Source: Euzebya rosea
GTDB taxonomy: Bacteria > Actinomycetota > Nitriliruptoria > Euzebyales > Euzebyaceae
Length of the DNA stretch: 64,000 bases
Reading direction: 5' to 3'
Assembly (NCBI RefSeq): GCF_003073135.1
Contig: NZ_PGDQ01000009.1
Coordinates: forward strand, 62,001 to 126,000
This document shows, piece after piece, positions 23,891-39,024 of the stretch. Numbering within the stretch: the first letter of the stretch is position 1; every line of letters starts with the position of its first letter. The notes beneath the pieces are model-generated. The model saw nothing but the letters and a program-made list of their open reading frames with translations. It had not been told where the DNA came from and made no database searches. The position numbers and the translations under genes were made by a program.

Positions 23891-23895
23891 CCCAG

Positions 23896-23969
23896 TCGGG
23901 ATGCAGGGATTTGAACCCTGGACCTCCACGTCCCGAACGTGGCGCGCTGCCAAACTGCGCTACATCCCG
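23896..23969 (-). tRNA. tRNA-Pro (anticodon CGG)
   Basis: Read on the minus strand, the acceptor stem CGGGATG pairs with CATCCCG, the anticodon stem CCACG/CGTGG encloses the loop TTCGGGA with anticodon CGG, and the T arm holds GGTTCAAATCC. Discriminator A; the 3' CCA is not encoded. Seventy-four nucleotides. It reads codon CCG, a frequent Pro codon in this DNA. Confidence 0.95.
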
Positions 23970-28116: not shown

Positions 28117-29253
28117 CTAGCCCCGGACCAGGTGCGCACCGATCGCGTCGAGGCCCTCGAGGTCGTGCACGTCCGACGGCATCTCCGGCACCTCGACCAG
28201 CGTGCGCGGATCCAGGCCGTGCAGGCCTGACTCGATGTTGCGCTGCTGGCGCGCGTGCACCTGCGCGGACCGGTCGAGCAGGCCCAGCATGCCGGCCACG
28301 GCCCGCTGGTCGTCGTCACCGGCCAGCAACCGCGTCCGGTCGTCCTCGCCGACTCGGGCGGCCAGGGCCGCGAGGTCCTCGGGCAGGGCCGGGGTCACGC
28401 GGTTGAGGACCAGGCCCGCCAGCGGCATTCCCTCCTTGGCCAGGCGCTGGACGAAGTACCGCGCCTCGCGCAGGGCGGTCGGTTCGCCGGAGGAGACGAC
28501 CACGAACGCCGCGTCACCGGACGACAGCAGCTCGTGGACCAGCTGCGCACGGTTCTTGAACCCCTCGTACATGCCCTCGAAGGACTGGAAGAACTCCGCG
28601 AGGTCGTCCAGCACACCGGCACCAGTGATCCGTCCCGCCGCCTTCATGAACAGCCCGGTCCCGAAGGCCGCCATCCGCCCGATGGTCTTGGTGGCGGTCA
28701 GCCCGGGGGACAGGAACATCTTCAGGAACTTGCCGTCGAGGAAGTCCGTCAACCGCTTGGGGGCATCGAGGAAGTCCAGGGCGTTTCGGGTCGGCGGCGT
28801 GTCGACCACGATGCAGTCGTAGCGGCCGGTGGAGTGCAGGTCGAACAGCTTCTCCATCGCCATGTACTCCTGCGTACCCGCGAGCTGGCCGGAGATCTGC
28901 TGGTAGAAGCGGTTGGACTTGATGCGGGCGGCCCGTGAGGGATCGTCGGCGTGCCGGTCGATGACCTCGTCGAAGGTCCGCTTCATGTCCAGCATCATCG
29001 CGTCGAGGTTGGGGACAGCGTCGACGGCGCGCGGGGTGTTGTCGAGGGCATCGAGGCCCATCGACTGGGCCAGGCGGCGCGCCGGGTCGATGGTGACCAC
29101 GATCGTGCGACGCCCCTGCCGGGCGGCGGCGACGGCAAGGGTGGCAGCGGTCGTGGTCTTGCCGACCCCGCCGGAGCCGGTGCAGACGATGATGTGGCGT
29201 TCGGCGACGACCTCGGCGAGGTCGCGTTCGCGGGCACGGTCCAGGGTCGTCAC
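28117..29253 (-). CDS. ArsA/Get3-like ATPase, second subunit
   Basis: 378 residues with a deviant Walker A/P-loop TGSGGVGKTT (residues 25-34), switch II IVVDTPPTRNALDFLDAP and TIDPARRLAQSM. It belongs to the SIMIBI NTPases once annotated as anion-transporting ATPases and here resembles the Rv3679/Rv3680 pair of mycobacteria, which form a Get3-like complex rather than an arsenite pump. No arsenite-binding cysteines are apparent. The GTG start overlaps the TGA of the partner gene (GTGA), so equal amounts are expected. Confidence 0.88.
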   Translation of the reverse strand: MTTLDRARERDLAEVVAERHIIVCTGSGGVGKTTTAATLAVAAARQGRRTIVVTIDPARRLAQSMGLDALDNTPRAVDAVPNLDAMMLDMKRTFDEVIDRHADDPSRAARIKSNRFYQQISGQLAGTQEYMAMEKLFDLHSTGRYDCIVVDTPPTRNALDFLDAPKRLTDFLDGKFLKMFLSPGLTATKTIGRMAAFGTGLFMKAAGRITGAGVLDDLAEFFQSFEGMYEGFKNRAQLVHELLSSGDAAFVVVSSGEPTALREARYFVQRLAKEGMPLAGLVLNRVTPALPEDLAALAARVGEDDRTRLLAGDDDQRAVAGMLGLLDRSAQVHARQQRNIESGLHGLDPRTLVEVPEMPSDVHDLEGLDAIGAHLVRG

Positions 29254-30221
29254 AGCCGATCCTCCAGGGTGGCGGCGATGGCGGTCACGATCTCCTCGGG
29301 GCGCGTGGCGTCGGCCACGAACGGCAGCTCCAGCGACGGCAGGTCGATCTCGTCGGCCACGCGCTGGCGCATGCGGTCGGCCAGGTCGAGGCGGCCGATG
29401 TGGGCACGCCCGGTGTCGAGCAGCTCCTCGGCGGTCGAGGTCTCGACATCGTCGACGCCCAGGTCGCCCAGCACGCGCTGCACGGTGCCTGCGTCCATGG
29501 TGGGCAGCTGCTTGAGCGCGGCCTCGTCCATGGCGGGCTGGACCGCGCGGTTGATCAGGACCGGGCCGAGGGGGACGCCCAGCTGGGTGAGGTCGCGGAT
29601 CGACTCGGCCGTCTCGGTGACGGGCATCTCCTCCAGCAGCGTGGTCAGCAACACCGCGGTGCGGGACGTGTCGGTCAGCATGTCGATCACGGTCTGGGCC
29701 TGCTGGCGCACGGGGCCGACGTTGACCAGCTCGGTGGTGGCGTCGGGGGCCGCCAGGAAGTTCACGATCCGGCCGGTCGGAGGTGCGTCGAGGATGATCA
29801 GGTCGTAGGCGAACTGCCCATCGGGGCGACGCCGGCGCTCGATCTCCTTGACCTTGCCGATCAGCAGGACGTCCTTGATCCCGGGGGCGGCTTGGGTCGC
29901 GAACTCCACGGCGGGGGTCTTCGCGACCAGCTTGGTGATGCGCTGGGCCCCGTAGAACATCGACAGGTACTCCGTCAGCGACGCCTCGGGGTCGATCGAC
30001 AGCCCGTACAGGTTGGGACGGAACTCGCGTTCCTCGAAGTCCCATGGTGCGGTGGAGAAGATGGAGGAGAAGGCCTGGCGCCCCTCCACCTCGACCAAGC
30101 AGGTACGGCGTCCCAGGCGCGAGCCAGCGAGGGCCAGCGACGCAGCGAGGGTCGACTTGCCGACGCCCCCCTTGCCGGTGACCAGCAGCAGGCGGCGCGA
30201 CAACAGCTGTGAGGCGTCCAC
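29250..30221 (-). CDS. ArsA/Get3-like ATPase, first subunit
   Basis: 323 residues, P-loop TGKGGVGKSTLAASLAL at 15-31, switch II LIILDAPPTGRIVNFLAAP, and CLVEVEGRQAFSSIF after the P-loop. It pairs with the downstream homolog as in mycobacteria. The GTG start lies about 110 bp from the divergent nfeD ATG, so the two share an upstream region. It probably acts in the cytoplasm on membrane or envelope proteins; the client is unknown. Confidence 0.88.
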   Translation of the reverse strand: MDASQLLSRRLLLVTGKGGVGKSTLAASLALAGSRLGRRTCLVEVEGRQAFSSIFSTAPWDFEEREFRPNLYGLSIDPEASLTEYLSMFYGAQRITKLVAKTPAVEFATQAAPGIKDVLLIGKVKEIERRRRPDGQFAYDLIILDAPPTGRIVNFLAAPDATTELVNVGPVRQQAQTVIDMLTDTSRTAVLLTTLLEEMPVTETAESIRDLTQLGVPLGPVLINRAVQPAMDEAALKQLPTMDAGTVQRVLGDLGVDDVETSTAEELLDTGRAHIGRLDLADRMRQRVADEIDLPSLELPFVADATRPEEIVTAIAATLEDRL

Positions 30222-30295
30222 GGGGTCACTATTACCCCGATCACCCGAGGCTGCACATCCCCCTCCACGACCGCCGACGCCGCGAACGGCCCCCG

Positions 30296-30326
30296 TTGGG
30301 GCCGTCGTGGGTCGACCGCCTACACT
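30296..30326 (+). promoter_or_regulatory. nfeD promoter with leaderless spacing
   Basis: TTGGGG (30296-30301) and TACACT (30321-30326) are separated by 19 bp, and the ATG of the NfeD gene begins 8 nt after the -10 box. There is no Shine-Dalgarno sequence, so the mRNA is probably leaderless. Confidence 0.45.
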
Positions 30327-30333
30327 CTCCGGG

Positions 30334-31758
30334 ATGGCCCTTCACCGAATCGCGGGCGGAGTGCTGCTGCTTGTCGGCCTTCTCGCCGCGCTGGCCGCCC
30401 CCGCGAGCGCCCAAGCCCAACCCTCTTCCACCGTCGACGTCGTCGAGGCGGTGGGCGTGCTCGACGGTCCGCTGACCGACTTCGTGATCGGCACGATCGA
30501 GCAAGCGAACCTCGACGCCGCACAGGCCGTCGTCGTCCGCCTGGACACCGACGGGGCCCTCGGCGGTGACATCGACCGGCTGGTCGACACCATCGAGTCC
30601 TCCGACGTGCCCGTCGTGGTCTACGTCGGTACTGCGGGTGCCCGTGCCACGGGTGCGGGCGTGCGCGTCGCCGCAGCTGCCCACGTCCTGGCGCTCGCCC
30701 CGACCAGCATCTACGGCGCGGCCCACCCGGCCGACCTGGGGGACCCCGGGGCGCTGACGGTCGGCGAGGTCGCCGCGGACCTCGAGGTCCTCGCCGACGC
30801 GCGCGGTCGCGACGCCGGGTTCCTCGTGGACGCCGCCGAGAGCGGTGCCGCCGTGATCGCGGTCCCCGACGGCGAGACCGGCGCCCCGATCGCCGACGGG
30901 ACCGAACTGCCCGAGGGCACCGACCCCGCGGTCGTGCGCACGCTGGACGAGTCAGCGCTGGTCGAGACCGGCATCGCCGACATCGTCGCCCCGACCATCC
31001 AGCAGGTCCTGGCGGCGCTCGGTGGGCTGGAGGTCACCACCGCCGCCGGTGACGTCGTGCTCGACGTCGACCCCGTGACCGCCAACGTGCGGTTCGTGAA
31101 CCTCGACCTGGTGCAGCGCATCCTCCACACCGCGTCGAGCCCCACGCTGGCCTACCTGCTGCTGCTGGCCGGTGCGCTGACCCTCTTCTTCGAGGTGTTC
31201 CAGCCGGGCTTCGGCGTGTCCGGGTTCTCCGCGATCGGTGTCCTCGCGCTGGGCGTCTACTCCGTCGCCGTCCTGCCCATCCACCCGTTGTGGGCGGTGG
31301 TCGCCGTCGTCGGACTCCTGCTGCTCGCCTACGACCTGGCGATCGCCGGGCTGTCGTGGCCGAGCGCCGTCGGCACCCTCGCGCTGGGTGCCGGATCGAT
31401 CAGGATGTGGGCGATCCCGCAGCTGGCACCGCCGACCTGGCTGATCGTCGTCGGCACCATCTCCGCAGCCGTCTTCTTCATCATGATGATGACCTCGGTC
31501 CTCAGGGCGCAGGGCAACCAGGCGCTGCTCGGGGCGAAGGCCGTGGAGGGCAAGGTCGGCATCGTCCGCTCGGCGCTGGGCCCCGAGGGCCACATCTTCG
31601 TCGGTGGTGCGCTGTGGCGCGCCCGTGCGCCGCAGGGTGCCGGCAAGGTCCGGACCGGGACCAAGGTGCGGGTGCTCGGGCTGAACGACAGCCTCACGCT
31701 CGACGTCGAGATCGTCGACGACTCCAGCACCGCCGGCACCACGACCACGAAGGTGTGA
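30334..31758 (+). CDS. NfeD family membrane protein with a degenerate protease domain
   Basis: 474 residues: signal peptide (1-27), ClpP-like domain (about 32-230), four or more membrane helices (about 265-390) and a C-terminal OB-fold (GAKAVEGKVGIVRSALG, GTKVRVLGLNDSLTLDVE). In long NfeD proteins the first domain is a serine protease whose Ser lies in GARAASAG; here the motif reads GARATGAG, with Gly107 at the Ser position, and the usual catalytic Lys in the following helix is missing. A non-proteolytic role in membrane organisation, perhaps with a stomatin partner elsewhere, is more likely. The next gene begins 10 bp after its stop. Confidence 0.85.
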   Translation: MALHRIAGGVLLLVGLLAALAAPASAQAQPSSTVDVVEAVGVLDGPLTDFVIGTIEQANLDAAQAVVVRLDTDGALGGDIDRLVDTIESSDVPVVVYVGTAGARATGAGVRVAAAAHVLALAPTSIYGAAHPADLGDPGALTVGEVAADLEVLADARGRDAGFLVDAAESGAAVIAVPDGETGAPIADGTELPEGTDPAVVRTLDESALVETGIADIVAPTIQQVLAALGGLEVTTAAGDVVLDVDPVTANVRFVNLDLVQRILHTASSPTLAYLLLLAGALTLFFEVFQPGFGVSGFSAIGVLALGVYSVAVLPIHPLWAVVAVVGLLLLAYDLAIAGLSWPSAVGTLALGAGSIRMWAIPQLAPPTWLIVVGTISAAVFFIMMMTSVLRAQGNQALLGAKAVEGKVGIVRSALGPEGHIFVGGALWRARAPQGAGKVRTGTKVRVLGLNDSLTLDVEIVDDSSTAGTTTTKV

Positions 31759-31767
31759 CGGCAGGTC

Positions 31768-33798
31768 GTGGCGTCGACCCACGAGGGCGGACCGGTGGTG
31801 CCCGGACCGCCCGATGCGACTGACCCGACACCGCCGCCGGTCCCGCCACCATCCCCGACGGCAGGCGCCCTGCAGGTCTACGACCGGCATGCCGACCGGC
31901 TGTACGACTTCGTGGTGGCCGTCACCCGGGACCCCGGTGCGGCCGCCGAGCTGGTCCGCGACGTCGTCGTCGCCGCCCGTGCGCCCGGGCATCCGTCGGA
32001 CCCGCAGGAGCTGCGGATGTGGCTGTACGCCACGATCCGCGGCGAGGCCTTCGACTGGTTGGCGGCACGCGGCCGGCTGAGCCCGGAGGACCGCGTCGTC
32101 GAGCTGCCGCACATCCGCGAGGACCACACGACCGGCGACCTGGGCGCCGTGGTGTGGGAGGCGCTCGCGGCCTGCAGCGAGCGGGACCAGGCGCTCATGA
32201 CCCTCCACCTCCGCCACGGCCTGACCGGCGCCGACCTGGCCGGCGCGATGGGGTTGTCGGAAGCGGCGTCGGACCGGCTGCTCGACCGGGCGCTGGAACG
32301 CGCACACGAGGAGGTGGGCGCGCTGCTCTCCCTGCTCGGCGTGGGCCCCTCGTGGCCCGGGCTCGCGCAGCTCCAGGAGGAATGGGACGGCACCTACTCG
32401 CCGTGGGTGCGCCGCATCGTGACCGCGCAGCAGCACGCGCAGGCCAGCGCCGGTGCCGTCCCGATGCCGCCCGGGGCCCCCGACCCGCTGCAGCTGCTGC
32501 AGGCCGTGCCGTTGGTTCCCGCCCCGCCACAGCTGCGCGACGCCGTCCGGACGCGCCTCGAGGCGGTCGACGCCCTCGCGATGCCCGCCCCCGTGGCCGA
32601 TCCCGACGACCTGGACGACACCATCCCGCCCGAGGCGGCGATCCCGCTGGTCACGCGCGACGACGATCCCACCATTCCCCCGGAGCGGGCGATCGCCTGG
32701 ACGTCACCGGACGACGACGCCACGATCCCACCCGAACACGCCATCCCCCTGCCCCCGGCCCCCGCCCCGGTCGGTGAGGCGACCGGCCGGGCCACCGATC
32801 ACCGCGGGCCCGTCCCGATCGCGCCAGCAGCGGATGTCGCCACCCCCGTGGGCGACACGCGGCCGCACCGCCGGGTGCCGTTGGTCCTGAGCGTCGCGCT
32901 CGGCGCGGCCATCGCCCTCGTCGTGGCCGGCATCCTGGCCCGCGCCCTGTTCGGGGACGAGGTCGACGAACCCGTCGCCCTGACCACCGAGTCGGTGCCC
33001 GCGCTGCCCGACCGGTCCAACCCGCCGGCGATCGCCTCCGCCGGCTCGGCGCGGACGCCGACCCCCTCGATCACCGACGGGACGTCGGGTGCCGTCGCTG
33101 CGGCGTCCGACGGGGTGCCGACCGTGCCGGAGGCGGCTGACGCCGAACCCTCCGCGGACACCACCGTCGCCGCCGACCGTGGCGAGCTGCTGGTCCCGGC
33201 AGACCCCGTCGTCGTCTCCGAGGGCGGGGGCACCGCCCAGCTCGGCAACGGCGGTGCCGCACCGCTGGAGTGGCAGCTGACCAGCCGGCCGGAGTGGGCC
33301 GAGGTCGTGCCCGATCGCGGCACCATCGGACCCGGCTCGACGGTGCAGGTCGTCGTCACCAGGGTCGCGGACATGCCCGAGGGCGACCACGAGGGTGTCC
33401 TTCGCATCGAGACGGCGGTGGGCACCGTCCGCGAGGTCAGCCTCACCACGGCCGTGGACCGGCCACCGGAGCTGCAGGAGGTCCAGTTCGGCACCCGGCT
33501 GCTGATCCAGCAGGGCTGCGGGCTGGACTCCTCCGAGGTCGCGGTGACCGTACGGGACGAGTCGGGCATCGACCGGGTCGTGCTGACCGTCGACGGCCCG
33601 GGCGCAGGCCGGCAGTCCCAGGTCGAGCTGCGGCCCGACCCCACCAGTCCCGGGCAGTTCGTGGGTGTCGTCGGCCCCTTCGACACCCCCGGGACCGCCG
33701 CCGTGACCGTGACCGCGGCGGACACGCGCGGCAACGAAGCGATGGCCGACGGCGGCATGCTGACCGTCGCTCCGTGTCCCGGCGGGTCCGCGCCGTAG
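31768..33798 (+). CDS. ECF sigma-like / transmembrane / BACON-domain fusion protein
   Basis: 676 residues in one chain. Residues about 35-110 resemble sigma region 2 (LQVYDRHADRLYDFVVAVTR, MWLYATIRGEAFDWL) and about 125-185 region 4 (CSERDQALMTLHLRHGLTGADLAGAMGL). A long Pro-rich cytoplasmic linker includes a unit TIPPEXAI repeated three times near 288, 306 and 323. One membrane helix lies near 370-395 (LSVALGAAIALVVAGILARALF). The outer part has a Pro/Thr/Ser linker, a BACON-like domain (GNGGAAPLEWQLTSRPEW, about 491) and an Ig-like C-terminal domain. The sigma, anchor and sensor roles normally split over two proteins are joined here. GTG start; no good ribosome-binding site, so coupling to nfeD is likely. 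Confidence 0.8.
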   Translation: MASTHEGGPVVPGPPDATDPTPPPVPPPSPTAGALQVYDRHADRLYDFVVAVTRDPGAAAELVRDVVVAARAPGHPSDPQELRMWLYATIRGEAFDWLAARGRLSPEDRVVELPHIREDHTTGDLGAVVWEALAACSERDQALMTLHLRHGLTGADLAGAMGLSEAASDRLLDRALERAHEEVGALLSLLGVGPSWPGLAQLQEEWDGTYSPWVRRIVTAQQHAQASAGAVPMPPGAPDPLQLLQAVPLVPAPPQLRDAVRTRLEAVDALAMPAPVADPDDLDDTIPPEAAIPLVTRDDDPTIPPERAIAWTSPDDDATIPPEHAIPLPPAPAPVGEATGRATDHRGPVPIAPAADVATPVGDTRPHRRVPLVLSVALGAAIALVVAGILARALFGDEVDEPVALTTESVPALPDRSNPPAIASAGSARTPTPSITDGTSGAVAAASDGVPTVPEAADAEPSADTTVAADRGELLVPADPVVVSEGGGTAQLGNGGAAPLEWQLTSRPEWAEVVPDRGTIGPGSTVQVVVTRVADMPEGDHEGVLRIETAVGTVREVSLTTAVDRPPELQEVQFGTRLLIQQGCGLDSSEVAVTVRDESGIDRVVLTVDGPGAGRQSQVELRPDPTSPGQFVGVVGPFDTPGTAAVTVTAADTRGNEAMADGGMLTVAPCPGGSAP

Positions 33799-34021
33799 GC
33801 GGATCACCCGCGAGTCGCCGTGGGCGCCGACGGTCGGTCGTGAGCAGGCTGCACAGCGTGAGCTACGACTGCGGAGAGGGATGGGCCGGTCACTTCGGGT
33901 CATTCGGAGCTAGTCACTCGTGATAGGTCGAGATTGGGCCTTCCGCTGTGCGGCCAGCGCGCATAGGCTCCCGACACTGTCCAGTTGACCAACCACCCGC
34001 TACAGCATGGAGTCCGCCCAC

Positions 34022-34309
34022 ATGGCCACCCTGCCGTTGCTGACTTCGGCCCCCAGCACCTCGTGGCAAGCCCACGGACTGTGCCGCAGTGTCGACGCCG
34101 GTGTTTTCTTCCCCCCAGCCCAGTTCGAGCACAAGCCAGAACGCGAGGCCCGCGAGAAGCGCGCCAAGGCGATCTGCAACGAGTGCCCCGTCCGTGGGGA
34201 GTGCCTGGAGTGGGCGCTGTCCACGAAGGAACCGCACGGGGTCTGGGGTGGGTACGCCGAGGGCGAGCGCAAGCAGATCCTCCAGGGCAAGGTCAAGATC
34301 AGCGCCTGA
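34022..34309 (+). CDS. WhiB family iron-sulfur regulator, probably WhiB4-like
   Basis: 95 residues. Four cluster ligands in the WhiB order, Cys21, Cys52, Cys55 and Cys61 (HGLC; ICNECPVRGEC), then GVWGG and a basic tail (GERKQILQGK). WhiB proteins bind a 4Fe-4S cluster sensitive to O2 or NO and work with the housekeeping sigma factor. Neighbouring PonA2-like, ArsA-like, DUF4177 and RidA genes match the mycobacterial whiB4 locus. ATG 34022 is preferred for its GGAG at 9-nt spacing; ATG 34007 would add five residues. The 200 bp upstream hold no gene. Confidence 0.92.
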   Translation: MATLPLLTSAPSTSWQAHGLCRSVDAGVFFPPAQFEHKPEREAREKRAKAICNECPVRGECLEWALSTKEPHGVWGGYAEGERKQILQGKVKISA

Positions 34310-34314
34310 TCGGG

Positions 34315-34344
34315 TTGGGCAGCGGGCCGCCCGGCAGGTAGCGT
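34315..34344 (+). promoter_or_regulatory. Promoter before the DUF4177 gene, leaderless spacing
   Basis: TTGGGC (34315-34320) and TAGCGT (34339-34344), 18 bp apart. The ATG starts 8 nt after the -10 box and no Shine-Dalgarno sequence is present. Confidence 0.4.
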
Positions 34345-34351
34345 GCGCGCC

Positions 34352-34507
34352 ATGACGAAGTGGGAGTATTTCACCGCACCCCTCCTGGACCACGCGTTGC
34401 AGGAGATCCTGAACAACTTCGGCGACGAGGGCTGGGAGCTCGTGACCGTCGTGGCGTTCAGCCCGCAGCAGCAGGTCGCGTACTTCAAGCGACCGAAGGC
34501 GGACTGA
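34352..34507 (+). CDS. DUF4177-like small protein
   Basis: 51 residues: starts MTKWEYFTAPLLDH, contains FGDEGWELVTVV and ends with QQVAYFKRPKAD. The KWEY...GDEGWELV pattern is that of DUF4177 proteins, small alpha/beta proteins of unknown role. The counterpart in mycobacteria (Rv3678A) also lies next to the RidA gene. Its stop is 3 nt from the GTG of the RidA gene, so translation is probably coupled. Confidence 0.8.
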   Translation: MTKWEYFTAPLLDHALQEILNNFGDEGWELVTVVAFSPQQQVAYFKRPKAD

Positions 34508-34510
34508 CCG

Positions 34511-34978
34511 GTGGGCGCGGTCGACGACCGCCTGGCGGCTGCCGGGATCGAGCTGCCCGAGGCGCCACCTCCCGCCGCGGCCTACGTGCCGTGGACGCGG
34601 ACCGGCAACCTCGTGTTCACCGCTGGCCAGATCCCGGTGAAGGACGGCAGCCCCGTCAGCACCGGCAAGGTCGGTGCCGAGGTCTCGCTCGAGGAGGGGC
34701 AGGCGGCCGCTCGCCAGTGCGCGATCAACGTCCTGGCCCAGCTGAGGGCCGCGGCCGACGGCGACCTGGACCGGATCCAGCGGATCGTCAAGATCACCGT
34801 CTTCGTGGCCAGCGCGCCCGACTTCGCCCAGCAGCACCTGGTCGCCAACGGCGCCTCCGAGCTGCTCGGCGACATCCTCGGCGACGAGGTCGGCCGGCAC
34901 GCCCGGTCGGCGGTGGGCACGGCGGTGCTGCCACTGGACGTCCCGGTGGAGGTTGAGGCGATAGCCGAACTCAGCTGA
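34511..34978 (+). CDS. RidA family protein (Rid/YjgF/UK114)
   Basis: 155 residues with the Rid fold: VPWTRTGNLVFTAGQIPVKDG, then HARSAVGTAVLPLDVPVEVEAIAEL, in which the Arg of ARSAVG aligns with the residue that binds the imine or carboxylate. RidA proteins hydrolyse reactive enamines and imines made by PLP enzymes; more distant Rid members do other jobs. The last codons (EAIAELS and the stop) lie inside the first unit of a 26-bp tandem repeat, so the C-terminus is fixed by the repeat. Confidence 0.9.
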   Translation: MGAVDDRLAAAGIELPEAPPPAAAYVPWTRTGNLVFTAGQIPVKDGSPVSTGKVGAEVSLEEGQAAARQCAINVLAQLRAAADGDLDRIQRIVKITVFVASAPDFAQQHLVANGASELLGDILGDEVGRHARSAVGTAVLPLDVPVEVEAIAELS

Positions 34979-35078
34979 AACGGGCGATCGCCGAACTCAG
35001 CTGAAACGGGCGATAGCCGAACTCAGCTGAAACGGGCGATAGCCGAACTCAGCTGAAACGGGCGATAGCCGAACTCAG
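34958..35078. repeat. 26-bp tandem repeat array spanning the ridA and selB 3' ends
   Basis: Four full units (34958-34983, 34984-35009, 35010-35035, 35036-35061) and a partial fifth (to 35078). Units are identical apart from one A-to-C change in unit 2. Each holds GCCGAACTCAGCTGAAACGG, whose TCAGCTGA core is a palindrome giving TGA on both strands. Unit 1 supplies the TGA of the RidA gene (34976-34978) and the fifth supplies the TGA of selB on the minus strand (35075-35077). Confidence 0.9.
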
Positions 35079-36925
35079 GCGATCTGCCGCAGGTCGCCGT
35101 CGCGGGTCGTGACCCCGGTGGTGTCCAGCAGCTCAAGCAGCGGCAGGGCGAACCGACGGGTGGTCCCGAGGGCCTCCCGTGCCTGCGACGCAGTGAACGG
35201 TCCGTGGTCGCCCTGAAGGGTCGACAGGGTCGCGATCGCCCGCTCCAGTGCCCCGGCCGTCACCGCGGCGTCGAGCCCCGGCAGGTCCACGAGCTGACCA
35301 GTCGACCGCAGGACCGTCAGCAGGTCGTCGTCGGCCCCCACGTCCTCGGCGACCTCGGCAAGCGGAGCGGGGCTGACCCCCTCGGCGTCCAGCCGCTCCA
35401 GCAGCGCCACCCGAGCGGCCTGCTGGGCCACCGTCAGCCGGGGTTCGTGCCCGGGTGCGGCCACCCCGCCGGGCACGCTGACCAGCCGGTCCCGCTCGAC
35501 CAGAAGGGCGACGAGCGGTCGGATGACCTCGGCCGGGCATCCGGCCTCGCGCAGGCGTCGGCGAGGGATCTCCGGGTCGACCGCGGGCAGGGCCGGCCGT
35601 CGCTGGTGGAACGACACCACGGCGCTGACCGCCAGGCCGCCCCACAGGGCGAACTCCTCCTCGTGCACCAGGTGGTCACCGACCACGACCGCGTCGCTGT
35701 CGGCGATGGCGCCCGGCCCGGCGTTGGCGTCGGCGAGGACCGCTGCGGTCGGCGCGGCCCGACGGGCCTCGACCAGCAGGCGAACCCGCTCCGCAGGGGC
35801 GGCCACCGACCCTGCACCCACCAGCCGCTCGGCACGGGAGCGACGGGTCGTCGCCCCCCTGACCCGCGGGCCGGGTGCGGGATCGAGGATCGTCCCGCCG
35901 CCGGCGGTCACCCCCCGGCCCGACTCACGCAGGACCACCCGGTCGCCCACGGCGAGCGGCAGCGCCCGGTCCATCTCCAGCCGGACCGCCCCGACGTCCA
36001 CGAGGTCCTGACCGGCAACCGGGTGCACGTGCACGCCCACCGCCGCCGTGCCGACGTGGGCCGTCCATGCGCCCCGTCGCCCGACGACCTGCCCCTCGAC
36101 CGGGGTCAGCACGGCCTCGACCACCTCGGTGGTTCGCCAGCCACCGCCCACCACGGCGTCGCCGCGACCCACCTCGTCGGCGTCGACGCCGGAGAGGTTC
36201 ATCGCCACCCGCCAGCCGGGCCGGACCTCCTCGACGTCCTGCTCCAGCGCCTGCAGCCCCCGCACCCGTACCTCGCGGTCCAGGGGCAGCACCTGCAGCC
36301 GGTCGCCGACCGCGACGCTGCCGCCCTGGAGGGTGCCGGTGACCACGGTGCCGGCGCCGCGAATGCTGAACGCCCGGTCGAGCCACATGCGCGGCCGCCC
36401 GTCGTCGGGTACGGCGGGGGCGCCCTCGAGCATGGCGGCCAGGGCAGCGCGGAGCTCGTCCAGGCCGAGACCGGTCGTGCTGGACACGGGCACGATCGGG
36501 GCGGCCGCCAGCGCGGTCCTCCGGAGCTGGTCGGCCAGCAGCTCGGCGGCGATCCAGGCCGTCTCCTCGTCGACCAGGTCGACGCGGGTGAGCGCGACCA
36601 CCGCGTCGGTGGTCCCGAGCAGCTCGAGGATGGCCAGGTGCTCCGCGGACTGCGGCATCCAGCCCTCGTCGGCGGCCACGACGAACAGCGCGGTGCGGAC
36701 CGGGCCGGCGCCCGCCAGCATCGTGGGCACGAACCGCTCGTGGCCGGGCAGGTCGACGAAGGCGACCTCGCCGACGTCCGGCAGCGTCGTCCAGGCGAAC
36801 CCCAGGTCGATGGTCAGCCCGCGGCGCTTCTCCTCCGCCAGCCGGTCGGGATCGCGGCCGGTCAGGGCGGTCACGAGCGTCGACTTGCCGTGGTCGACGT
36901 GCCCGGCGGTGCAGACGACCCTCAC
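35075..36925 (-). CDS. selB: Selenocysteine-specific elongation factor SelB
   Basis: 616 residues. EF-Tu-like GTPase: G1 GHVDHGKST (8-16), G3 DLPGHERFV, G4 in the variant form TRVD (common in this family), followed by two beta-barrel domains (MWLDRAFSIRGAGTVVTGTLQ) and C-terminal winged helices that read the SECIS hairpin (FALPLLELLDTTGVTTRDGD). It brings Sec-tRNA to UGA codons. The GTG start overlaps the stop of the ClC gene; the stop codon lies in the tandem repeat array. selA lies about 3 kb away; tRNA-Sec and selD were not found in the window. Confidence 0.94.
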   Translation of the reverse strand: MRVVCTAGHVDHGKSTLVTALTGRDPDRLAEEKRRGLTIDLGFAWTTLPDVGEVAFVDLPGHERFVPTMLAGAGPVRTALFVVAADEGWMPQSAEHLAILELLGTTDAVVALTRVDLVDEETAWIAAELLADQLRRTALAAAPIVPVSSTTGLGLDELRAALAAMLEGAPAVPDDGRPRMWLDRAFSIRGAGTVVTGTLQGGSVAVGDRLQVLPLDREVRVRGLQALEQDVEEVRPGWRVAMNLSGVDADEVGRGDAVVGGGWRTTEVVEAVLTPVEGQVVGRRGAWTAHVGTAAVGVHVHPVAGQDLVDVGAVRLEMDRALPLAVGDRVVLRESGRGVTAGGGTILDPAPGPRVRGATTRRSRAERLVGAGSVAAPAERVRLLVEARRAAPTAAVLADANAGPGAIADSDAVVVGDHLVHEEEFALWGGLAVSAVVSFHQRRPALPAVDPEIPRRRLREAGCPAEVIRPLVALLVERDRLVSVPGGVAAPGHEPRLTVAQQAARVALLERLDAEGVSPAPLAEVAEDVGADDDLLTVLRSTGQLVDLPGLDAAVTAGALERAIATLSTLQGDHGPFTASQAREALGTTRRFALPLLELLDTTGVTTRDGDLRQIA

Positions 36926-39024
36926 GCGCTGTCCTCGGGCACCGTCGCGGGGTCGGCGAGGATGGCCCGGACGTCCTCGATGGACTCCGACGCCGTGAGG
37001 AATACCACCTCGTCGCCGGCGTGCAGGCGGGTCGTGCCCGACGGGGTCAGCGCCTCGCCGCCCCGCCGGATCCCGGTGACCAGGGTGCGCTCGGGCCACT
37101 CGATGTGCTGGATCTGGCGACCGTCGGCCAGCGAGGCCGGGGCGACCACGACCTCGGCGAACCGCGTGTCGGCGAGCTCGCGCAGCCGCGAGCGGTCCTT
37201 GCGCTGCTGCACGCCCATGCTGCGGGTGATCGCCCGTTGGTAGGCCTGCACGAGGTCGCTGCGGCGAATGAGGCCGACGAGCTTGCCCCTGTCGTCGGCG
37301 GCGACCACGGGAACGCGGCCGACGTTGAGCGCGGCCATGCGTCGCACGGCGCGGAAGACCGGGTCGTCGGGGGTCACGGTGGACACCGTCGTGGTGGCGA
37401 TGTCGCCGACGGTCAGGTTCCCCGGATCGGCGTCGCCAAGCCGGGCATCGACGTCGGCGCGGGTCACGATCCCCGCCAGCCGCCCCTCGGCATCCACGAC
37501 CGGGTAGCCGTGGTGGCCGGTGGCGACGAAGCGTTCGGCCAGGTCCACCACCGACAGGTCGGCGGTCACCGTCTCGGGATCAACGGTCATGACCTCGCCC
37601 ACCGAGACGGTCTGCATGACGTCGATGTCGTCGGGTTCGGCGTAGACCACACCGTCGCGGCGCAGCTGCCGGGTGTAGACCGACCCCTCCCACAGGCGAT
37701 CGGCGAGGAAGGTCGACAGGCCCGTGGCCAGCATCAGGGGCAGGACGAGCCCGTAGTCGCTGGTCAGCTCGAACACGATGAGGATCCCCGTCAACGGGGC
37801 CTTGCCCGAGGCACCGAACGCCGCAGCCATGCCGACCAGCGCGTAGGCGCCCGGCTCGATGCCGGTGCCGGGAAGCACGACGGTGGCGACGTGTCCGAGC
37901 GCCCCGCCCAGGCTGGCGCCGATGAACAGCGTGGGTGCGAGCTCCCCGACGGGATGGCCGCTGGCGATGGAGCTGTTGGCGGCGAGGATCTTGCCGACCA
38001 TCAGCACGAGCAGGAACCCGGCGGCCGCGAGTCCCGTCCCCGGCCCGCCCTCGATGAAGGAGCGGACGGGGTCGGTCCCCACCGCGGGTGACAGCAGCGG
38101 CAACGGGGGGTTGTCGTGGCCGGTCCCCAGCACCTCGGGCAGGCCCAGTGCAAGGACGCCGACCATCAGCCCGCCGATGGCCGGCTGGGTCCAGTCGGGC
38201 AGCGGGCTGCTCGTGAACCGGCGCTTCATCGCCTCCTCGGTCGCCATCGAGGTCCGGGCAACCAGGACGGCGAGGACACCGAGCGCGGCGTAGAGCATCA
38301 GCTCGCGTGGGTCCTCCAGGACGTAGTCGCGTTCGACGGCGTAGATCAGCTCGCCGCCGAGCAGCTGCCGGCTGATGACGGAGGACAGGACGGCGGCGAT
38401 GACCACGACCTGCAACGAGCGGACCTTGAACCCGCCGATGATCACCTCCATCGCGAAGAGCATCCCGCCGATCGGCGCGTTGAAGGATGCAGCGATGCCG
38501 CTGGCGGCGCCGGCGGCGATCAGCGACCGGCTGCGTTCCTCGTCCAGCGCCAGCCACCGACCGCAGGCCGATCCGACCATCGAGCCGAGCAGCACCATGG
38601 GGCCCTCGCGCCCACCAGCCGCACCGGTTCCGATCGACACCACGGTGCCGACCCCCTTGACCAGCGTGCGCAGCACCGGGATGTGGCCGGCGTGGATCGC
38701 GATGGCTCGCATGGTCGCGGTGACCCCGGAGTCGTGGCTCTGGGACCCGCTGAGGACACGCAGTCCGCCGACGACGAATCCGCCCAGCACCGGCACGGCG
38801 ATGACCTGCCAGCGGACGGGGCTGGGGCCCCAGACGAAGCCCTTGACCAGGACGATCAGGGTGACCAGCAGGACGGCCAGCAGGCCGGTACCGATGCCGA
38901 CGGCCGCCGCGATCGCGAGCATGGCCCCGTCGTTGCGGCTGCGGTCGAGCACCGACGTGCGCAGGGCTGTACGACCCGCCTTGGTCAGCGGGTTCCGTTC
39001 GCGCAGGGTCGTGACCGCACGCAT
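36922..39024 (-). CDS. ClC chloride channel/antiporter with CBS pair and RCK-C domain
   Basis: About 700 residues. ClC core with GAAGGREGPMVLLGS (gating Glu present), SGIAASFNAPIGGMLFAMEV, and a GASGKAPLTGILIVFELT segment; the first selectivity motif is changed to DSGVT instead of GSGIP. After the helices come two CBS domains (about 470-595: VMTVDPETVTADLSVVDLAE, DIATTTVSTVTPDDPVFRAV) and a TrkA-C/RCK-C domain (VTGIRRGGEALTPSG). The nucleotide-binding domains suggest regulated anion transport. ATG 39024 is chosen; the frame could extend to GTG 39090. Confidence 0.9.
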   Translation of the reverse strand: MRAVTTLRERNPLTKAGRTALRTSVLDRSRNDGAMLAIAAAVGIGTGLLAVLLVTLIVLVKGFVWGPSPVRWQVIAVPVLGGFVVGGLRVLSGSQSHDSGVTATMRAIAIHAGHIPVLRTLVKGVGTVVSIGTGAAGGREGPMVLLGSMVGSACGRWLALDEERSRSLIAAGAASGIAASFNAPIGGMLFAMEVIIGGFKVRSLQVVVIAAVLSSVISRQLLGGELIYAVERDYVLEDPRELMLYAALGVLAVLVARTSMATEEAMKRRFTSSPLPDWTQPAIGGLMVGVLALGLPEVLGTGHDNPPLPLLSPAVGTDPVRSFIEGGPGTGLAAAGFLLVLMVGKILAANSSIASGHPVGELAPTLFIGASLGGALGHVATVVLPGTGIEPGAYALVGMAAAFGASGKAPLTGILIVFELTSDYGLVLPLMLATGLSTFLADRLWEGSVYTRQLRRDGVVYAEPDDIDVMQTVSVGEVMTVDPETVTADLSVVDLAERFVATGHHGYPVVDAEGRLAGIVTRADVDARLGDADPGNLTVGDIATTTVSTVTPDDPVFRAVRRMAALNVGRVPVVAADDRGKLVGLIRRSDLVQAYQRAITRSMGVQQRKDRSRLRELADTRFAEVVVAPASLADGRQIQHIEWPERTLVTGIRRGGEALTPSGTTRLHAGDEVVFLTASESIEDVRAILADPATVPEDSA

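Follow-up and report, generated by a model that had tools for sequence, protein, structure and literature searches.

Sigma factors and membrane sensors are normally separate proteins. A sequence-only reading of one locus in Euzebya rosea pointed to a departure from this arrangement, in which sigma-like segments, a membrane helix and an outer part are found in one chain. As a rule the separation holds, but fusions of sigma, anti-sigma and membrane parts have already been published (PMC8999054, PMC5826349). The question raised by this locus is whether the sigma part of the chain still serves transcription or has been turned to another use. The gene lies in a 64,000-nucleotide stretch of contig NZ_PGDQ01000009.1 (here called the window).

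Domain architecture of the fusion protein

The open reading frame at 31768..33798 (+) starts with GTG, encodes 676 amino acids and is intact, with zero internal stops. By Pfam, TIGR02937, AlphaFold and its orthologues, it is a one-chain protein composed of ECF sigma-like, anti-sigma-like, membrane-helix and outer beta-domain parts. The parts list proposed earlier (sigma regions 2 and 4, a single membrane helix and outer beta-domains) is confirmed, and the anti-sigma-like domain, absent from it, is added. A frameshift joining two genes, or an artefactual fusion, is ruled out by the identical architecture in five further genomes of the class; a sixth has this architecture minus the BACON-like domain.

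All features described here are on the + strand. The orthologue alignment delimits a Pro-rich N-terminal extension (aa 1-33; 31768..31866), which stands in place of a region 1.2-like helix, D..L....GD, present in 90 of 106 family members. Pfam and the family alignment place a sigma2-like domain at aa 34-108 (31867..32091) and, together with the AlphaFold models, a sigma4-like helix-turn-helix domain at aa 127-190 (32146..32337). The recognition helix of the latter, SEAASDRLLDRALERAHEE (aa 164-182; 32257..32313), has a net charge of -3 (family mean +2.0).

Residues 1-190, for which a profile search had been proposed, match sigma regions 2 and 4. Sigma70_r2 covers aa 38-103 at E 2.2e-6 when aa 1-190 are scanned, above Pfam's cut-off, and at E 1.2e-5 when the whole chain is scanned. 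Sigma70_r4_2 covers aa 129-178 at E 6.6e-5, slightly below its cut-off, and with TIGR02937, the ECF superfamily model, the match extends over aa 36-181 (E 1e-9, under the curated cut-off). A PDB search with aa 1-190 gave 11 matches, all of them sigma factors, with a best E of 0.014, and the family profile matched the PDB unambiguously (AlgU, E 6e-21; SigW, E 2e-20). The chain possesses sigma2 and sigma4 without sigma3, the layout of ECF (group IV sigma-70) factors, as judged from Pfam, TIGR02937 and the model compared with SigW, CnrH and RpoE.

The next segment, aa 191-275 (32338..32592), is an anti-sigma (zf-HC2 / class I ASD)-like domain without zinc ligands, assigned by homology in the orthologue alignment and by AlphaFold. 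Its sequence homology to zinc-bearing relatives is clear. In distant relatives the equivalent stretch reads C...WDGxFTVLxRKRVARHIxxCxxC...PLALxGAAPxxAAPxxLRDRVL and bears the Hx3Cx2C signature of zinc-type class I anti-sigma domains; zf-HC2 is matched by some of them, and a weak match links the family profile to the RsiW chain (E 0.007). In the window protein the anti-sigma frame is preserved (WDGTYSPWVRR ... PLQLLQAVPLVPAPPQLRDAV), with no cysteines in it. The order of the chain is therefore sigma, anti-sigma, membrane helix and outer sensor.

A linker with the repeated motif D(D)xTIPPExAI follows at aa 276-370 (32593..32877), modelled with low confidence. The only membrane helix in the chain, aa 371-395 (32878..32952), was found by helix prediction (aa 372-390) and AlphaFold, and the basic residues RPHRR directly before it suggest that the N-terminus is inside. 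Sequence and model then give a Pro/Thr/Ser-rich outer linker (aa 396-470; 32953..33177).

The outer part had been read as BACON/Ig-like. At aa 471-565 (33178..33462), Pfam finds BACON weakly, at E 0.004-0.03, below the cut-off. AlphaFold predicts a confident beta-sandwich for these residues (pLDDT 93-98), and the model fits solved PapD/MSP-type structures with an rmsd of 1.7-1.9 A over ~92 residues. The Ig-like, beta-sandwich character thus stands, and a true BACON module is rejected in favour of a predicted PapD/MSP/ASH-type sandwich. A second Ig-like domain, supported by the orthologue alignment and AlphaFold, occupies aa 566-676 (33463..33795); its C584 and C669 are common to most orthologues.

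Relatives among one-chain sigma/anti-sigma proteins

Scanning genome contigs with the window protein alone returned no relatives. The survey for the same fusion that had been proposed for this locus recovered about 100 relatives across Actinomycetota. All five genomes examined from the window's family carry the fusion, as do other members of the class and 24 of 296 genomes drawn across the phylum. Eighty fusion loci come from named genomes, which include Ilumatobacter, Mycobacterium, Mycolicibacterium, Kutzneria, Streptosporangiaceae, Aeromicrobium and Streptomyces.

The one-chain layout has been published for ECF52 sigma factors, with SCO4117 of Streptomyces coelicolor (PMC5826349), and fusions of sigma, anti-sigma and membrane parts have been described for ECF48, ECF52, ECF53 and IutY (PMC8999054). 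Like ECF48/52/53, the window protein is an Actinobacterial chain with an ECF sigma part, an anti-sigma domain, a membrane helix, a Pro-rich linker and an outer domain. The family profile matches a Streptomyces flaveus protein of the ECF52 layout at E 4e-46; this protein is composed of sigma, the motif HIRDCRHC, a helix, a Pro/Thr-rich linker and a C-terminal domain. The outer part differs from that of ECF52, being PapD/ASH-like and Ig-like rather than carbohydrate-binding, and no carbohydrate-binding match was found in a Pfam scan of the chain. Furthermore, ECF48/52/53 possess a zinc-finger anti-sigma domain, whereas the window's lineage lacks the zinc ligands and most sigma contact residues. 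The window protein is almost certainly a derived member of the Actinobacterial one-chain ECF sigma/anti-sigma/membrane-sensor proteins. The fusion itself is already known; the eroded lineage is what is new.

Outside Actinomycetota, IutY (ECF243) of Pseudomonas putida likewise unites sigma with a membrane anti-sigma in a single chain. It is proven to be a sigma factor, is activated by proteolysis and acts in cell-surface signalling under iron starvation, whereas the activity of the window protein is doubtful, and no siderophore genes were seen in the neighbourhood examined. SigW-RsiW of Bacillus subtilis, in contrast, consists of two separate proteins of known activity.

Two further arrangements were seen among the relatives. 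At L119:1426-3036, the ECF sigma/anti-sigma/membrane-helix chain continues into outer PASTA domains (E 2e-17), an arrangement that would lend itself to one-chain cell-wall sensing. At five loci (L107, L120, L178, L180 and L188), two different fused sigma/anti-sigma genes adjoin or lie nearby, as if by tandem duplication.

Predicted structure of the cytoplasmic half

A structure prediction of the N-terminus had also been called for, and AlphaFold gives a sigma fold. In models of the whole chain and of aa 30-275 (pLDDT 87, pTM 0.79), sigma2 and sigma4 are predicted in a closed, anti-sigma-bound arrangement. The aa 30-275 model, which takes in the anti-sigma-like domain, is compact. The best structural match of the sigma part is SigW in its anti-sigma-bound state, as found with RsiW (Z 14.8; 141 residues at 3.0 A). 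The other best matches are RpoE with NepR, CnrH with CnrY, and PhyR with NepR (Z 12.3). Holoenzyme-bound sigmas superpose at ~27 A because their domains stand apart. The alignment behind the models is dominated by non-degenerate relatives, so the closed form reflects the family as much as the window protein.

PhyR, of the alphaproteobacterial general stress response, has a sigma-like domain whose promoter- and polymerase-contact regions are degenerate and which titrates an anti-sigma factor (PMC8103513). The window protein likewise has a closed ECF-like sigma2-sigma4 fold with degenerate contacts, and common descent is claimed no further than the ECF fold. As a response regulator, PhyR is soluble and has a receiver domain; the window protein sits in the membrane, has a built-in anti-sigma domain and shows no receiver domain by Pfam. 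It is therefore not a PhyR, though it may work in a similar mode.

Loss of polymerase, promoter and zinc residues

Over the cytoplasmic half, 111 members were aligned: five from the window's family, which form a clade, and 106 others. Contacts were scored at six sigma positions, four of them taken from the literature or prior sigma-factor knowledge and two by conservation, which makes the score partly post hoc. Among the 106 relatives, 90 score 6, 10 score 5 and 4 score 4; the five clade members score 0-2. Most of the conserved polymerase- and promoter-contact residues of ECF factors are not retained in the clade.

The Gln of region 2.2 matters for core binding. Gln64 in this region is Q or H in 98/106 relatives and R/R/R/L/A in the clade, with Arg in the window protein; a literature search on sigma-32 Q80 found nothing usable. 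Asn92 (N in 94/106) is G/S/T/A/E, with Gly in the window protein, and position 176 (R or K in 104/106) is L/L/L/L/S. Arg174, which we take to be the equivalent of the -35-contacting arginine of E. coli sigma-E, is retained by two of the five members and missing from the other three. The DAED contact, described as essential for holoenzyme formation (PMC8103513), is represented by AAAE, AAAE, PAAA, RAAE and VAAA, the window protein having AAAE. The recognition helix has a net charge of -3/-3/-1/+1/-1 in the clade, compared with a family mean of +1.97 (sd 1.14); for the sigma2.4 helix the charges are +1 to +3 compared with +4.9. Among conserved columns, loss is more frequent at polar than at nonpolar ones, a difference (Fisher p = 0.034) that is modest because the whole stem is fast.

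The idea that the sigma part has lost polymerase binding, raised earlier as an alternative, is favoured by these contact losses, which fall short of proof. Its main rival is a working membrane-tethered sigma factor, held by its anti-sigma domain until a signal sets off intramembrane proteolysis that releases it to polymerase; its contact residues would simply have diverged, giving a new promoter specificity. Release of this kind is the model for ECF48/52/53 and has been shown for IutY (PMC8999054). Sigma2 and the ECF profile are still detectable in the window protein, and the genome has two genes matching Peptidase_M50, the site-2-protease family. Moreover, contact positions vary among congeners no more than among functional relatives: identity at the -35 contacts is 0.14-0.29 among congeners, which is not below the level of similarly diverged relatives (mean 0.27), and as proof of lost DNA binding this variation was rejected as not discriminating. 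Against a releasable sigma, near-invariant polymerase and promoter contacts are lost together, and the recognition helix is acidic, with a proline in two congeners. In the orthologue from another genus of the family (G004), the sigma signal has decayed below Pfam detection and the outer domain is still scored. Overall, a releasable sigma seems unlikely.

The window protein retains Glu61, Asp65, Trp85, Arg91 and Arg174, and may therefore still bind polymerase or DNA weakly. The first four, kept while DNA-side residues are lost, are consistent with a tether that sequesters RNA polymerase at the membrane, in which sigma2 would keep some affinity for the beta' clamp and the DNA-reading parts are gone. 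This is highly improbable, however: two of the five orthologues have an uncharged DAED-equivalent (PAAA, VAAA), none keeps Gln64, and the face that binds the clamp would probably be hidden in the predicted closed form.

The zinc ligands are kept by 106, 106, 106 and 105 of the 106 members outside the clade, and the Cys...HxxxCxxC site is destroyed in 5/5 members within it. Approximately 44% of class I anti-sigma domains are without the zinc motif (PMC7406223), so zinc loss by itself is uninformative on activity and was rejected as a sign of lost anti-sigma function.

Two proteins of the same class, from G023 and G043, have a contact score of 1. The fusion orthologue in G023 (L030:4729-6684) has a sigma2 net charge of +11, an intact zinc site and an acidic sigma4 recognition helix, and its gene is divergent from a Ser/Thr-kinase-like gene and an FHA-domain-like gene. 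In G043 (L098:7416-9671), the sigma part is eroded past Pfam detection and the HxxxCxxC site is intact; this erosion is apparently a separate loss.

Selection on the fusion gene

The dN/dS between the window gene and that of its 84%-identical congener is 0.09 in sigma2, 0.037 in sigma4 and 0.07 in the anti-sigma domain, indicating strong purifying selection, which also speaks for a releasable sigma. The values are 0.22 and 0.37 in the linkers, 0.27 in the PapD-like domain and 0.12 in the last domain. Sigma4, in which the DNA-reading face is most changed, is the most constrained segment. Because dN/dS is low in sigma2, sigma4 and the anti-sigma domain, the fusion gene is not decaying. In the tree, the five clade members share a long stem with 100% SH-aLRT support, and the history of the clade is a phase of fast change followed by constraint.

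Proposed mode of action

Most DNA- and polymerase-contact residues are lost and the fold is kept, so signalling without starting transcription is possible. On balance, sequence comparison and the models lean towards a derived sigma-like domain, tethered to the membrane, whose signalling goes through protein contact and probably not through promoter binding. The sigma part would have lost promoter recognition and become a protein-binding module, as in PhyR's degenerate sigma-like domain, with its own anti-sigma domain clasping it. On reading a signal, the outer PapD/Ig-like domains would alter the clasp through the membrane helix, and the altered clasp would expose or hide a binding surface. 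The binder might be a different sigma factor, an anti-sigma factor or a partner in the membrane, for instance the NfeD pseudo-protease encoded alongside. That an actinobacterial lineage converted a one-chain sigma/anti-sigma receptor into a membrane-spanning pseudo-sigma, a transmembrane signalling protein with the sigma fold kept only as a protein-binding module and similar erosion in G023 and G043, is a tentative reading on which we are nearly evenly divided, leaning slightly against. A literature search on "pseudo-sigma" found nothing relevant.

One-chain sigma/anti-sigma receptors are still little studied. If the sigma half is a non-transcriptional binding module, sigma mimicry would have a second example, independent of PhyR and bound to the membrane, and caution would be needed in annotation pipelines that label all such chains as RNA polymerase sigma factors. 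The clade, with zinc and contacts kept or lost, offers natural contrasts on the residues needed by a fused sigma.

NfeD and the gene neighbourhood

Directly upstream of the fusion gene is nfeD (30334..31758, +), identified by Pfam and alignment. The sequence-only reading had placed the genes 10 bp apart; the adjacency stands, and with NfeD ending at 31758 the spacing is 9 bases. In G001 the genes overlap. The NfeD1b-like protein at 30334-31758 is the sole detectable copy in each of the four genus genomes. Its catalytic serine (S97 of PH1510, a position set from entry 6m4b, where Ala occupies it) is Gly in all four congeners, and it is a putative conserved pseudo-protease.

It had been hinted that the nfeD neighbour releases the sigma part. 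This is weakened by the serine loss and by G004, which keeps the fusion next to a chloride-channel gene and in which NfeD was not detected. NfeD is an unlikely releasing protease because all four congeners lack the catalytic serine, and, given G004, it is a genus-level neighbour. A literature search on NfeD together with sigma found nothing relevant.

The NfeD-fusion pair, found in 4/4 genus genomes with the serine lost in all four, would also fit a structural plug or scaffold, in which the sigma/anti-sigma halves form an envelope complex with the NfeD pseudo-protease and have no link to transcription control. The PapD/Ig-like outer domains agree with such a role. However, G004 keeps the fusion without a detectable NfeD, and the constraint on sigma4 argues for a specific cytoplasmic interaction, which makes a scaffold very improbable.

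The gene order ArsA-ArsA / NfeD-fusion-WhiB-RidA-SelB is conserved in 4/4 genomes of the genus. The SelB-like elongation factor gene lies at 35075-37099 (-); no tRNA-Sec was found in the window, the only tRNA being tRNA-Pro at 23895-23969. Within 28117-34978, the nfeD-fusion pair is flanked by two ArsA/Get3-like ATPase genes and by genes for WhiB and RidA. The segment looks similar to the Rv3678c-Rv3682 (WhiB4) region of Mycobacterium tuberculosis, into which nfeD and the fusion gene would have been inserted.
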